From Bacteroidota bacterium (lineage in GTDB: Bacteria > Bacteroidota > Bacteroidia > Chitinophagales > Chitinophagaceae): a stretch of 64,000 nucleotides of DNA. Both the position numbers and the translations under genes were made by a program. The notes below the pieces were generated by a model, which was given only the letters and a program-made list of their open reading frames with translations, did not search any database and was not told where the DNA came from. The DNA lies in contig CANHGW010000006.1 in the NCBI GenBank assembly GCA_947460175.1, positions 1 to 64,000 of the forward strand, written 5' to 3'. Below are positions 1 through 8,241 of the stretch, piece after piece. Numbering within the stretch: the stretch's first letter is position 1; each line of letters begins with the position of its first letter.

Positions 1-149
1 ACATAGAGGCTTTTTACAACACCACCAGACGACACAAACATTTAAATAATTTAACCCTTTTAGAATTTCAAAAATTAATTAACAATAACAATTTAAAAAA
101 TGCAGCTTAATGATCAATTTAATTTGTCCACTTTATTCTTGGAATTCCA
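1..149 (+). mobile_element. Right end of an IS3-family insertion sequence (partial)
   Basis: The window opens inside an insertion sequence. Frame 3 (3-110) encodes the last residues of an IS3-type transposase. The 39 bases after the stop contain TGTCCACTTT and finish at TTCCA (position 149), which resembles a right terminal inverted repeat of this family (read inward: TGGAATTCC...AAAGTGGACA). The left end lies outside the window, so the boundary at 149 is an inference from the terminal-repeat look and from the change of character of the downstream reading frame. Confidence 0.6.
3..110 (+). CDS. IS3-family transposase OrfB, C-terminal fragment
   Basis: Thirty-five residues and a TAA stop are visible. 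They start with IEAFYNTTRRHKHLNNL and continue with LLEFQKL. This matches the end of the DDE integrase core of IS3/IS150-type OrfB proteins, where a (Y/F)IxxYNxxRxHxxLxxxTPxxF signature precedes the C-terminus. The rest of the gene is upstream of the window, so completeness and activity cannot be judged. The TAA stop overlaps the ATG of the following peptide frame (TAATG), so the downstream frame could be translationally coupled to the transposase. Confidence 0.8.
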   Translation: MEAFYNTTRRHKHLNNLTLLEFQKLINNNNLKNAA

Positions 150-307
150 GTGGAGGTTTAAAAAATCCATGTAATTGTTATTATGGCTACTATTGTTGGA
201 TTAAAGGCGGTGGTAGTGGAAGTTGTATAACAGGTAATTGTCAAACACCTCCTAAAGCAGGTTGTGGTGTTTTTGGAACTACAAATTGTGACGGTAAATG
301 TCAATAA
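110..307 (+). pseudogene. Cysteine-rich small peptide, N-terminus replaced by IS end
   Basis: The 65-residue frame has nine cysteines, mostly in pairs or spaced doublets (PCNC, SCITGNC, NCDGKC), and glycine-rich stretches. It has no signal peptide. The first 13 residues appear to be read out of the IS right end (110-149), while the Cys-rich part begins at about position 150. I infer that the native start and leader or signal sequence were lost by the insertion and the frame is now a fusion. The gene sits directly upstream of a membrane thioredoxin-fold protein, a context seen for short secreted or exported Bacteroidota peptides (NVEALA-type neighbourhoods). The family assignment is not certain. 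It could still be expressed through the TAATG overlap with the transposase. Confidence 0.5.
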
Positions 308-318
308 ATTTAAGTTTT

Positions 319-351
319 ATTCTAGGAAGTGAGATTGTCACTTCCTAGAAT
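319..351 (+). terminator. Perfect 14-bp stem-loop between peptide and thioredoxin gene
   Basis: The arms 319-332 (ATTCTAGGAAGTGA) and 338-351 are perfectly complementary around a 5-base loop (GATTG). Only a weak AT-rich run follows, with no long T tract. It is therefore more likely an attenuator or mRNA-processing/stability element separating the peptide gene from the gene at 369 than a full terminator. Confidence 0.6.
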
Positions 352-368
352 AATTAACATACATTAAT

Positions 369-1211
369 ATGAAAAAAAAACTACTATTAGCATGTGTTTC
401 AATCTTATTGAACATACTTGTTCTAAGTCTTATCAGAGGGTATTTGGGTTTAGATGTGGCTTGTATTATAGCGATTATCGCATACATGTTGTTTACCTAT
501 TATGTGTTCATTACTTTAAAAACATCAAAATTTCATTTCAAGCTTATAATAATACTTATTGGAACTATGATAGTACACGTACCACAAAGAATTATTGATT
601 TTAAAAGTCAACTAATATCTTTTCCAGAATTCATGTGTGAAATTTTAGGTGTGATATTAGGTTTGCTTTTCATTTATGTTGGTAAATTAGGTAAGCTTAT
701 AATTTTATTGATCACATTTTTATCATCATTGATTGTATATATTAAGCATGATAGTGTAATTGATAGTTTGATATATAGTAATTTATTTAATAAAAATACA
801 AAACAAATAAAAATATACGCTGTCCCTTATTTTGATTCAAACAATGTAAACATAAATGATAAATTATTTAATCCTGCTGATTTAATTGTATTGAATATTT
901 GGGCTACATCTTGTGGGGTTTGTATTGCTGAATTTCCTCAAATTGATTCTTTGTATAATTTGTCATTACAGTCAAGTAAAATCAAATTATATACTGCATG
1001 TATTTTACAAAATGGAGATAGAAAAACTCCTTATGAAATTGGAACTATCAAAAATACTAAGTTTCCCATTTTTACTATTCCCAATTGGGATTATGTAATT
1101 AAAGAATATGGCATGGATGGTGTGCCAGTTACTTTTGTAATTAAAAATAATGAGGTGCTTTTTCGCGGGACTCTTCTAAATGCTTGGGGCTTTGCCATTG
1201 AGCAAAATTAG
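369..1211 (+). CDS. Membrane-anchored thioredoxin/TlpA-like protein
   Basis: The 280-residue protein starts with about five hydrophobic segments (roughly residues 3-22, 27-50, 57-72, 88-105, 106-125) and ends in a thioredoxin-like domain (about 140-280). The active-site pair is Cys182-Gly-Val-Cys185 in an IWATSCGVC context, and a cis-proline candidate is Pro253 (GVPVTF). This predicts a periplasmic disulfide reductase or oxidase anchored in the inner membrane, in the TlpA/ResA superfamily. It lies 61 bases after the Cys-rich peptide frame, which suggests that the peptide's cysteines are a substrate, but that is inference. The membrane part is not a recognised DsbD or MauE domain. Confidence 0.75.
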   Translation: MKKKLLLACVSILLNILVLSLIRGYLGLDVACIIAIIAYMLFTYYVFITLKTSKFHFKLIIILIGTMIVHVPQRIIDFKSQLISFPEFMCEILGVILGLLFIYVGKLGKLIILLITFLSSLIVYIKHDSVIDSLIYSNLFNKNTKQIKIYAVPYFDSNNVNINDKLFNPADLIVLNIWATSCGVCIAEFPQIDSLYNLSLQSSKIKLYTACILQNGDRKTPYEIGTIKNTKFPIFTIPNWDYVIKEYGMDGVPVTFVIKNNEVLFRGTLLNAWGFAIEQN

Positions 1212-5636: not shown

Positions 5637-6284
5637 ATGAAAAGTAAAAAATCAAAAGAGTACGTTAAATTAATTGAAAACAATAAAGAATGGGCAGCAT
5701 CGGTGGTTAAAGATGATCCAGAATTTTTCACCCGATTATCTAGTTTTCAAAAACCTGATTTTCTATGGATAGGTTGTAGTGATAGCCGTGTACCTGCCGA
5801 TAGAATAACGGGTACACAACCAGGAGAAATTTTTGTACATAGGAATATTGCTAATATGGTAGTTCATACTGATATGAATTTGCTTGCTGTATTGGAATAT
5901 GCAGTAGACCATCTTGATGTGAAACATATTATTGTATGCGGACACTACGGCTGTGGTGGTGTTAAAGCTGCTATGTCAAGGCACAATTTCGACTTGATAA
6001 ATAAGTGGATTCGAAATATTAAAGATGTGTATAGAATGCACAGAGATATGATCGACTTTCAAACCAAACCTGAAGATCGATTAAATAAATTAATTGAGCT
6101 GAATGTCGAAGAGCAAGTTATGAACTTAGCCAAAACAAGTATTGTACAAAGATCTTGGAAGAATAAGAAAAGTCCTGAAATTCATGGTTGGGTGTATAGT
6201 TTAGAAGATGGCCTAATCAAAGAAATTTGCACTATGACACACGAAGATCATTTAGACCCATTGTATGAGTTTGATGATTTGTAG
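5637..6284 (+). CDS. Beta-class carbonic anhydrase
   Basis: The enzyme interconverts CO2 and bicarbonate in the cytoplasm. The zinc ligands of the class are visible: Cys47 with Asp49-Ser-Arg51 (CSDSR), and His103 with Cys106 (CGHYGC). The 215-residue length is typical of the Can type. The RNIANMV and EYAVDHL segments around the active site are intact. It forms a two-gene operon with the SulP transporter upstream, a pairing common in bacteria and probably serving inorganic carbon supply or pH control. Confidence 0.95.
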   Translation: MKSKKSKEYVKLIENNKEWAASVVKDDPEFFTRLSSFQKPDFLWIGCSDSRVPADRITGTQPGEIFVHRNIANMVVHTDMNLLAVLEYAVDHLDVKHIIVCGHYGCGGVKAAMSRHNFDLINKWIRNIKDVYRMHRDMIDFQTKPEDRLNKLIELNVEEQVMNLAKTSIVQRSWKNKKSPEIHGWVYSLEDGLIKEICTMTHEDHLDPLYEFDDL

Positions 6285-6390
6285 TAGATTCATGATATTC
6301 AAATAGATTTTAATTTATACCAATTTTAAAAATACTCTTACTGATAGTATAAATTATTAAAATTGAATTGTAGATTTATGAAGTGAACCT

Positions 6391-8241
6391 ATGAAAAAAG
6401 TCACTGTATTCCTATTATTATTGTCAATTGGGTTAACTAGTTTAGCTCAGAATAGATATGTAGATAGCTTAACAAATTGGTTGAATTTGCATCCTATCAA
6501 AGATACGATGCGTGTAATGACTACACATCGACTTTCGTATCGATTATCTGAAATCAATACGCAACGTGCATGGCAGTATGCCAAAGAAACAGAAATTGTT
6601 GCTAAAGAATTAGGATTTGATAAAGGTATTGCCTTAGCCAATGTCAATTATGCCATTCTTGAAACTGGAGAAGGCAATTTTAAAAATAGTGCAGACTATT
6701 ACATGAAAGCAATTGCTATTTCTGAACGAATTAAATATACACGAGGTTTAAGTATTTCGTACAATAATATTGGAGAGAACTATCTTAAACTGAAACAGTA
6801 TGACAAAGCCATAGAGTATACTAACAAAGCAAGGGACTTGAATCACTCAATCAACGATATTCGAGGAGAAGCGATTAACTACGAACAAATAGGTAGTATA
6901 CAATACGAAAAAAAGAACTATGAAAAAGCCATTGCAAATTGGACGTTAGGCTTTGACTTAGCTAAGTCGGCAGGAGAACCAAATTTGATCTCACTTTATT
7001 ATATCAATTTCGGTAAATATTACTTAGTCACCAACAATATAAAAAAAGCAATCAGTAGTTTATCTATTGCAGACTCTATTGCAAAATCAAGATCAGAGTT
7101 GTTAACTCAAATACAATGTAGTAAAGCCTTTTCTGCTTCTTATGATAAATTAAATCAACATAGTATTGCAATTCAATATTTAAATGAAGGATTAAAATTA
7201 TCAAAGGAATTAAAGAATAAAACAGAAGAATGTGATTTGTACAATTTAATTTCTTTACAATATGAAAGAATGAGAATGCCTGATTCAAGTATCTTTTTTC
7301 TTCGAAAGCATAAGGAAATCAGTGATGTAATATTAAATGATAAAAATTTTGCTCATCTCACATTTATTCAAACACAATATGAAACAAAATTAATTGATCA
7401 AGAAAATGCTGAACTAAGGTCAATACAAAAGAAACAAACAAAAAAATTAAGTGAAAAGAATTTATTATTGATCGCTTCAGCTATTGCATTGCTATTAGCA
7501 TTTGTGAGTGTATTACTTATATACAATTCATTTAGACATAAAAAGCGTAATTTGTTATTAGAAGAACAACAGAAATTATCTGAATACAATCAGCAATTGG
7601 CCGAAATGGAAGTGAAATCGCTTCGTTCACAAATGAATCCACACTTCCTTTTTAACTCGCTTAATTCCATACGTAATTTTATTATAAAGAATGAGTCTCA
7701 ATTAGCAAGCGATTATTTAGCCAATTTTGCTTCACTCATGCGTAAAATATTAGACGCCTCTCAGCAAAGTAACGTTTCACTAGAAGAAGAAATAGAGATG
7801 TTGAAATTGTATGTAGGATTAGAGCAAATGCGTTTCTCAAATAAATTTGCTTACAACATTCAAGTGGATGAATCATTGGATTTTGCCAATATCAACATAC
7901 CTACTATGGTTATTCAACCATTTATTGAAAATGCGATATGGCATGGATTATTAGCCAAAGAAAGCAATGATGGCGTATTAAACATTCAATTTAAGGAAAT
8001 AGCCAATAATCAAGATGAAATACTTTGTATAATTACAGATAATGGAATCGGCAGAAAAATGAGTGAATCTATGAAGAGTAGATTGAAAAAACATACGTCA
8101 AAAGGAATCAATATTACGCTCGAAAGGTTGAAAAGACTGGCAAAAATAACGATTGAGAATCCAATTGAGATCGTTGATTTATACGATGAAAAAGGCAATG
8201 CGACCGGTACAAAAGTCATTTTACACCTCCCAGTATTATAG
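6391..8241 (+). CDS. TPR-containing LytS/YehU-type sensor histidine kinase
   Basis: The 616-residue protein has a signal peptide (residues 1-20), a periplasmic region of tetratricopeptide repeats (about 35-320), a coiled-coil approach, one transmembrane segment (about 355-377), a second coiled coil, and a His_kinase-type domain. The phospho-acceptor is His418 in QMNPHFLFNSLNSI. The ATPase N-box is in QPFIENAIWHG and the G-box in DNGIGRKMS. Kinases of this type usually signal to a LytTR-domain response regulator. None is encoded next to it, so its partner must lie elsewhere. The peptide or stimulus sensed by the TPR part is unknown. Confidence 0.9.
   Translation: MKKVTVFLLLLSIGLTSLAQNRYVDSLTNWLNLHPIKDTMRVMTTHRLSYRLSEINTQRAWQYAKETEIVAKELGFDKGIALANVNYAILETGEGNFKNSADYYMKAIAISERIKYTRGLSISYNNIGENYLKLKQYDKAIEYTNKARDLNHSINDIRGEAINYEQIGSIQYEKKNYEKAIANWTLGFDLAKSAGEPNLISLYYINFGKYYLVTNNIKKAISSLSIADSIAKSRSELLTQIQCSKAFSASYDKLNQHSIAIQYLNEGLKLSKELKNKTEECDLYNLISLQYERMRMPDSSIFFLRKHKEISDVILNDKNFAHLTFIQTQYETKLIDQENAELRSIQKKQTKKLSEKNLLLIASAIALLLAFVSVLLIYNSFRHKKRNLLLEEQQKLSEYNQQLAEMEVKSLRSQMNPHFLFNSLNSIRNFIIKNESQLASDYLANFASLMRKILDASQQSNVSLEEEIEMLKLYVGLEQMRFSNKFAYNIQVDESLDFANINIPTMVIQPFIENAIWHGLLAKESNDGVLNIQFKEIANNQDEILCIITDNGIGRKMSESMKSRLKKHTSKGINITLERLKRLAKITIENPIEIVDLYDEKGNATGTKVILHLPVL

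Follow-up and report, generated by a model that had tools for sequence, protein, structure and literature searches.

A fulvocin C-related precursor remnant beside a multi-span membrane thioredoxin in a Chitinophagaceae genome, and the recurrence of this gene pair in Bacteroidota

A remnant of a fulvocin C-related precursor gene, followed by an intact gene for a multi-span membrane protein with a thioredoxin domain, was identified at the left end of contig CANHGW010000006.1 in a Chitinophagaceae genome (assembly GCA_947460175.1). The whole stretch analysed, positions 1 to 64,000 of this contig, is referred to here as the window. The locus is probably a decayed bacteriocin-like unit, in which the membrane thioredoxin, as an oxidase or isomerase in the periplasm, would be dedicated to the presumed disulfides of the peptide core; that it is dedicated to the peptide is suggested by its gene position. 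The C-terminal core of the remnant shows the same spacing of eight cysteines (Cys) as the bacteriocin fulvocin C-related protein family (NF033852), which takes its name from the Myxococcus fulvus bacteriocin fulvocin C, a peptide of about 45 residues with four disulfides, known in sequence since 1981. The NF033852 model does not include the neighbouring genes that encode the membrane thioredoxin and a DUF1573 protein.

The pairing of a Cys-rich gene with a membrane thioredoxin, noticed in a preliminary description of the window, recurs elsewhere. Of 30 distinct precursor loci (genomes and loci carry G and L labels), 19 have a multi-span thioredoxin in the cluster, 18 of them adjacent to the precursor gene and one (L111) with a DUF1573 gene in between. 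The precursor models were run on samples of 244, 315 and 296 Bacteroidota genomes, which partly overlap, and Actinomycetota entered through two loci only. In the window's family, Chitinophagaceae (244 genomes), the thioredoxin stands beside the precursor at 9 of 13 loci (the window, G482 twice, G421, G520, G464, G546, G605 and G426), the unpaired loci being those of G457, G476, G570 and G435. The class-wide sample (315 genomes) added six new loci, all of them paired, from four families and with three loci in one genus; the thioredoxin of G817, one of the six, was found by profile search. None of the three loci that the phylum sample (296 genomes) contributed besides the window (G029, G131 and G286) is paired. 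The G286 precursor has a one-span TlpA-like protein nearby on the other strand. A contig scan with the core pattern returned 11 loci, including seven new ones of which three are paired (L110, L111 and L112); its single short core pattern came from five precursors, and the scan is far from exhaustive. Plasmids gave a single match, on a plasmid of Bacteroides finegoldii, where the DUF1573, precursor and thioredoxin genes stand in a row, and a plasmid search with the window thioredoxin as query gave no match.

For these counts, the 16 family rows were reduced by dropping two weak partial matches (G553:C32, E 0.003; G570:C2, E 0.0098), whose open reading frames (ORFs) each contain four Cys and show no Cys-rich tail, and by merging two G605 rows. 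Two G131 rows were also merged, G029 was present in both the phylum and class samples and was counted under the phylum, and L105, L106, L107 and L109, which are the loci of G520, G421, G457 and G570, were counted once. Thioredoxins were searched at all loci with a profile of ten family thioredoxins beside precursors plus the orphan G427, the other samples being held out. The weakest held-out thioredoxin (G874) scored 29.8 bits over model positions 31-276 and has five spans and a CAYC motif. Of 18 gaps measured between the precursor and thioredoxin genes, 16 lie in the range from -4 to 61 bases, the 61 bases of the window included; the larger gaps are 566 bases at L111 and 215 bases, with the annotated start, at L164. 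The values for L069 and L160 use a start downstream of that of the longest ORF, and L101 lies outside the measured set. A DUF1573 protein above the Pfam cut-off was found in the cluster at 8 of the 30 loci among ten candidates picked by eye.

The pairing was also seen from the thioredoxin side. A full-length multi-span thioredoxin is encoded at 14 loci in the 244 family genomes, and nine of these lie beside a precursor. Full-length proteins scored at least 97 bits and proteins related in the thioredoxin domain only at most 88.5 bits. The full-length profile was made from the ten paired family copies and the orphan G427 used above, together with two small membrane proteins, and ten candidates were scored per genome; since it was built mostly from paired copies, it may favour the paired outcome and orphans may be missed. 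When the window thioredoxin was the sole query, two of three other full-length relatives were found beside a precursor.

The intact Bacteroidota precursors (n = 22) are 194-288 residues long, and 21 of them carry a lipobox as detected by regular expression, the exception being L112. These proteins are not the short peptides of the preliminary description, and they have a long helical prodomain. In the AlphaFold model of the L110 precursor (10 sequences), helices are predicted at residues 31-110 with pLDDT 81-88 and the core is unstructured. Together, the lipobox and the helical model indicate a lipoprotein whose folded prodomain, in place of a short leader, carries the core. The L110 model matched no solved fold (best E 1.7), and the best candidate for a solved homologue of the precursor was chance-like (E 0.049). 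All 24 intact precursors examined, two of them from Actinomycetota, have the eight-Cys core pattern, and the eight core Cys are invariant across the 12 precursors of alignment A3. L095 was excluded from the anatomy counts, and the regular-expression "lipobox" of L113 was not counted as one. The family is patchily distributed: NF033852 scores above its cut-off in 11 of the 244 family genomes and 7 of the 315 class genomes, and precursors were found in 12 (one weak match dropped) and 8 of them, respectively.

Only the end of such a precursor is left in the window. The nine-Cys peptide frame of the preliminary description exists as ORF 110-307 on the plus strand (65 amino acids, nine Cys), but it starts inside an insertion element and is a chimera, in which 13 element codons, with one Cys, are fused to the native remnant. 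A short secreted nine-Cys peptide as such was therefore rejected. The remnant matches NF033852 at model positions 107-149 of 150 (E 6.3e-5, 23.8 bits); positions 1-106 are missing, and the insertion element stands in their place. Since 23.8 bits is below the curated cut-off of 35, the window copy is not classed as a member but as what is left of one. In alignment A8 (the window and nine relatives), the Cys of the remnant fall in seven invariant columns and one that is conserved at 90% or more. Alignments A1 and A4 have seven and six invariant Cys columns, fewer than eight because the loop that holds the third Cys varies in length. A search of all six frames of the 64-kb window found the eight-Cys spacing of the family a single time, against 0 of 100 first-order Markov surrogates, with a pattern composed after the family, window member included, had been seen; judged by its sequence, the core is not a chance pattern. 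Two other origins were considered and set aside: an NVEALA-type peptide, as the peptide has no Pfam match, and an anti-phage or phage origin, as no PADLOC or PHROG match was obtained at E 0.01.

The contig starts at window position 1, within the insertion element. ORF 3-110 matches rve_3 weakly (13 bits, below the Pfam cut-off). Bases 1-149 recur with 99-100% identity over at least 148 bases at five further sites in the same genome (G000), and a sixth further site has only the last 68 bases of the element end; these copies lie on contigs C7, C15, C23, C46, C49 and C51. All seven copies end in ...GGAATTCCA and diverge past base 149 or 150, which indicates that residues 1-13 of the apparent peptide, with one Cys, are encoded by the element. 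A genome search for the left end of the element gave just the seven right ends. As several contigs have an end at or close to the element, further genes may likewise be truncated at contig edges.

The missing leader was not found elsewhere in the genome with NF033852 or with a model of 12 intact precursors, whose second genome match was chance-like (13 bits, positions 3-50, E 0.145). Leave-one-out tests recovered the leader by itself in 12 of 12 cases, at E below 1e-10. The assembly is rated 98% complete, and the leader is thus most likely gone, although it could still lie in unassembled sequence. The window organism is probably no longer able to make a proper peptide precursor, and only its thioredoxin gene is intact.

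Between the core and the thioredoxin gene lies a hairpin of -23.7 kcal/mol (z -6.59; 0 of 200 shuffles equally good), which has no T run and is not among the terminator-like elements of a terminator scan. A similarly stable hairpin (-25.3 kcal/mol) is present at the same place in G482:C18 (L094) and not in most other measured gaps. The coordinates of these features and the groups of loci referred to in the text are collected in the table.

Table. Features at the left end of the window and loci referred to in the text
Feature	Location	Strand	Remarks
Insertion element end	1..149	+	IS3-like by eye; holds the last 35 transposase codons (3-110)
Native remnant, eight-Cys C-terminal core of a fulvocin C-related precursor	150..307	+	NF033852; leader and signal peptide gone
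Hairpin	314..358	+	perfect stem of 16 bp, 317-332/338-353; in the gap between remnant and thioredoxin gene
Membrane thioredoxin	369..1211	+	intact ORF, 280 amino acids; multi-span N-terminus, C-terminal thioredoxin domain
CGVC redox motif, residues 182-185	912..923	+	C182, C185 and P253 invariant in alignment A6 (6 sequences)
Orphan thioredoxin loci	G427, G436, G541, G595, G549		
DUF1573 loci	L093, L095, L096, L101, L102, L072, L111, L164		above the Pfam cut-off
Gly-rich lipoprotein loci	G000:C1:221206-221973 (L169); L147 3627-4526; L166; L168		

The second gene proved to be what the preliminary description had made of it, an intact gene for a multi-span membrane protein with a CGVC thioredoxin domain. 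Kyte-Doolittle windows, used here in place of a trained predictor, gave six spans for the window protein and three to seven, mostly five, for full-length relatives. Its AlphaFold model (pLDDT 64, six sequences) has four long N-terminal helices, with helices at residues 2-139. A Foldseek search with the predicted model gave StoA as the best match (E 3.4e-6), and the thioredoxin domain also matched ResA, SdbA and TlpA. These proteins have the same predicted C-terminal fold, a CxxC motif and a conserved proline; P253 of the window protein is presumably the cis-proline, following the family pattern. The thioredoxin domain is probably periplasmic. TlpA/ResA-type proteins have a single anchor or a lipid, whereas the window protein has about five N-terminal spans. 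The CxxC dipeptide varies among relatives, which have CGVC, CMPC, CMIC, CYAC, CAPC, CKPC, CPPC, CAYC and other motifs. In G482, two thioredoxin genes stand in tandem (L071 5941-7702), and their C-terminal halves are near-identical while their membrane parts and CxxC motifs (CMIC and CYAC) differ, suggesting gene conversion.

Pfam gave only weak Redoxin and Thioredoxin matches to the window protein, both in its C-terminal half, and the Redoxin score of 17.6 is below the gathering score of 26.6. L110, L111, L146, L147, L162 and L164 reach the gathering score of Redoxin, AhpC-TSA or Thioredoxin_8, and L112 does not. In the membrane part, Pfam found nothing in the window protein, L110, L111, L112, L147, L162 and L164, and sub-threshold matches only in L146; MauE (PF07291) had no match in the eight full-length thioredoxins scanned. 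Kinship with MauE was rejected, as the hhalign comparison with one MauE protein gave a probability of 0.1%, and the absence of a DsbD or MauE domain claimed from the letters of the window is borne out for Pfam. Kinship with DoxX was also rejected, as a profile comparison with one DoxX-like protein (L072 3969-4934, labelled by eye) gave nothing. Electron conduits of the DsbD/CcdA type carry a conserved Cys pair in the membrane domain. The membrane thioredoxins lack such a pair, with no conserved membrane Cys in alignments A2 or A7.

Other thiol-redox proteins were found at precursors of other phyla. In Pseudonocardia nigra (L113), the precursor (108.2 bits) is followed by a MauE protein (PF07291, 46.4 bits, cut-off 27), and a thioredoxin-like protein with CSGC (Pfam 17.9 bits, below the cut-off) is also encoded. 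A second Cys-rich ORF (L113 2747-3079, 110 amino acids, Tat-like signal by eye) lies after the MauE and thioredoxin genes. In Streptomyces monomycini (L115 4503-5435), an N-terminal segment bearing CGTC, a hydrophobic stretch and a fulvocin-like core are joined in one ORF, and the CGTC segment is not recognised by Pfam. These two loci, one each in Pseudonocardia and Streptomyces, suggest that the partner can be replaced by thiol-redox proteins of different kinds. The Prolixibacteraceae locus L114 and the Acidobacteria locus L108 showed no redox neighbour. In two family genomes, a small multi-span protein without a thioredoxin domain occupies the position of the partner: in G457 (L095 5914-6234, minus strand) it precedes a DUF1573 gene, and in G476 (L099 7328-7756) a short DUF1573-like gene that scores below the cut-off. 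Neither protein is similar to the membrane part of the thioredoxins at E 1e-3.

The oxidative folding or redox maturation of the peptide suggested in the preliminary description appears to fit the recurring pairing best. In the window, the peptide gene is a leaderless remnant. In an intact unit, the precursor would be exported as a lipoprotein by the general secretory route, and its folded helical prodomain would hold it in the envelope. The protein of about five spans would present its CxxC thioredoxin domain in the periplasm, where it would make or reshuffle the disulfides of the core. The C-terminal core, with about 45 residues and eight Cys, would be oxidised to presumably four disulfides and later be released by proteolysis, possibly as an antibacterial peptide.

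Several observations weigh against oxidative folding. Thioredoxin homologues with no adjacent Cys-rich gene, which the preliminary description had named as the refuting case, are present: at 5 of the 14 loci with a full-length thioredoxin, the 10-13 kb inspected contain no gene with the eight-Cys spacing, and one of these five (G436) retains DUF1573. They are a minority beside the nine paired loci, and the pairing is thus strong, not obligate. Single matches to a less strict Cys pattern in L147 and in L148 were not counted, as their spacing differs and they lie on the strand opposite to any candidate gene order. On the precursor side, 11 of the 30 loci, including all three of the phylum sample, have no multi-span protein, and the class-wide sample re-found G029, which lacks the multi-span thioredoxin. 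The TlpA/ResA-like fold is more often reductive, and given this and the varied CxxC dipeptide, the reaction may run in either direction. There is no conserved membrane Cys to account for re-oxidation of the CxxC. Moreover, the substrate gene is broken in the window itself, and no member other than fulvocin C is known to have bacteriocin activity. Among the unpaired loci, the intact G570 precursor (L097, about 6159-6791) has transposase-like ORFs, identified by eye, on both flanks, so its thioredoxin partner may have been lost through insertions.

The main rival of oxidative folding is self-immunity, which we consider unlikely. The thioredoxin would then reduce the disulfides of the peptide in the producer's own periplasm, or the membrane domain would be an immunity protein fused to a thioredoxin. 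The gene stands where bacteriocin immunity genes usually stand, and the small multi-span proteins of G457 and G476, without a thioredoxin domain, hold the same position. The copies without a precursor (5 of 14) resemble orphan immunity genes, and in the window and in G605 the precursor is broken and the thioredoxin is kept, although the G605 thioredoxin is perhaps shortened at its N-terminus. However, the two small proteins are not similar to the membrane part of the thioredoxins, intact precursors without such a neighbour are found in G570, G286, G029 and the Prolixibacteraceae locus, and broken or truncated precursors without one in G131, G435 and the Acidobacteria locus. The MauE and thioredoxin-like proteins beside the Pseudonocardia precursor point to maturation.

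Somewhat less likely than self-immunity, the core may be a surface-anchored or structural Cys-rich domain, with a role in adhesion, signalling or redox sensing, which the thioredoxin would still fold or reduce. The bacteriocin label comes from a resemblance to fulvocin C in the name of an NCBI model, and the large folded prodomain of the lipoprotein precursors differs from the short leaders typical of bacteriocins. Yet the patchy spread, the plasmid copy, the decayed copies and the variable loops of the core are what would usually be expected of antagonism genes. It is very improbable that the thioredoxin serves as a general thiol enzyme of the envelope and stands beside the precursor by accident: relatives in the thioredoxin domain abound in the phylum (204 of 395 genomes at E 0.001; among the matches listed, all but the window's own begin at residue 61 or later), but full-length relatives are rare (14 loci in 244 genomes), nine of the 14 lie beside a precursor, and the pairing is repeated at six new class-wide loci in four families, counts that tell strongly against coincidence.

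A second bacteriocin-like family was noticed during the analysis. Its members are lipoproteins whose hydrophobic C-terminus is rich in Gly, and at the loci listed in the table a small multi-span ORF of 62, 73, 78 or 119 amino acids comes next. In G541, which belongs to the window's genus, such a Gly-rich lipoprotein is encoded directly upstream of the membrane thioredoxin. It was rejected as a second general partner: relatives occur in 10 of the 244 genomes, of which only G541 and the window's genome also hold a full-length thioredoxin, in the latter on different contigs. In G410, a secreted-looking protein of 195 amino acids with a Cys-rich tail follows a Gly-rich protein (L170 1704-2291).

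Bacteriocins with a thiol oxidoreductase of their own are already known. Fulvocin itself appears as a bacteriocin in a list of myxobacterial ribosomally synthesized and post-translationally modified peptides (RiPPs) and in a keyword list (PMC8708641, PMC12333140). The sublancin operon (sunA-sunT-bdbA-sunS-bdbB) likewise combines a Cys-containing bacteriocin with thiol-disulfide oxidoreductase genes, and its BdbB is described as taking part in forming the two disulfides of sublancin (PMC6391423). Sublancin is glycosylated, and SunT removes its leader and exports it, whereas the unit described here has a lipoprotein signal, a long helical prodomain and an oxidoreductase fused to a multi-span domain. 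No peptidase-transporter was seen by eye among the printed neighbours of the precursors, for which no model search was made. Enterococcus faecalis reportedly needs DsbA for its disulfide-bonded EntV to be active, and the bacteriocin F4-9 gene has, as in the unit here, a neighbour that encodes a postulated thiol-disulfide oxidoreductase (PMC6606811). Unlike this unit, enterocin F4-9 is glycosylated. SdbA is described as a catalyst of disulfide bonding in secreted proteins (PMC5112981). A role in disulfide formation has been speculated for MauE, and candidate RiPP clusters found in Streptomyces with decRiPPter contain MauE genes, in one case with MauD, which are proposed to modify the precursors of at least eight Cys encoded there (PMC7794033). 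These clusters resemble the Pseudonocardia locus. In contrast, the Bacteroidota form is one protein with a membrane part that is not detectably MauE. What is new here is the lipoprotein prodomain together with the fused multi-span thioredoxin. No description of the precursor-thioredoxin pairing was found in the literature searched, which excluded most subscription journals.

The locus holds a caution for readers of genomes, as the insertion element supplied the apparent start of the "peptide". It also draws attention to a membrane domain that was not recognised by any Pfam model in the eight proteins scanned. More speculatively, and with no better prospects than the structural role considered above, a single multi-span thioredoxin may fold the peptide and, where the precursor is lost, give immunity by reductive unfolding, and envelope-anchored disulfide-rich bacteriocins may be a widespread class in Bacteroidota, Bacteroides plasmids included, that has attracted little notice. 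Such a dual role would explain why the thioredoxin persists where the precursor is broken or absent. A family named by its resemblance to fulvocin C is now linked to a recurring and testable thioredoxin partner. The unit is small, with two or three genes, and is intact in a named isolate, Gynurincola endophyticus (L106, the locus of G421), which has the precursor, the thioredoxin and DUF1573, and on the plasmid of the gut species B. finegoldii, which makes it directly testable.

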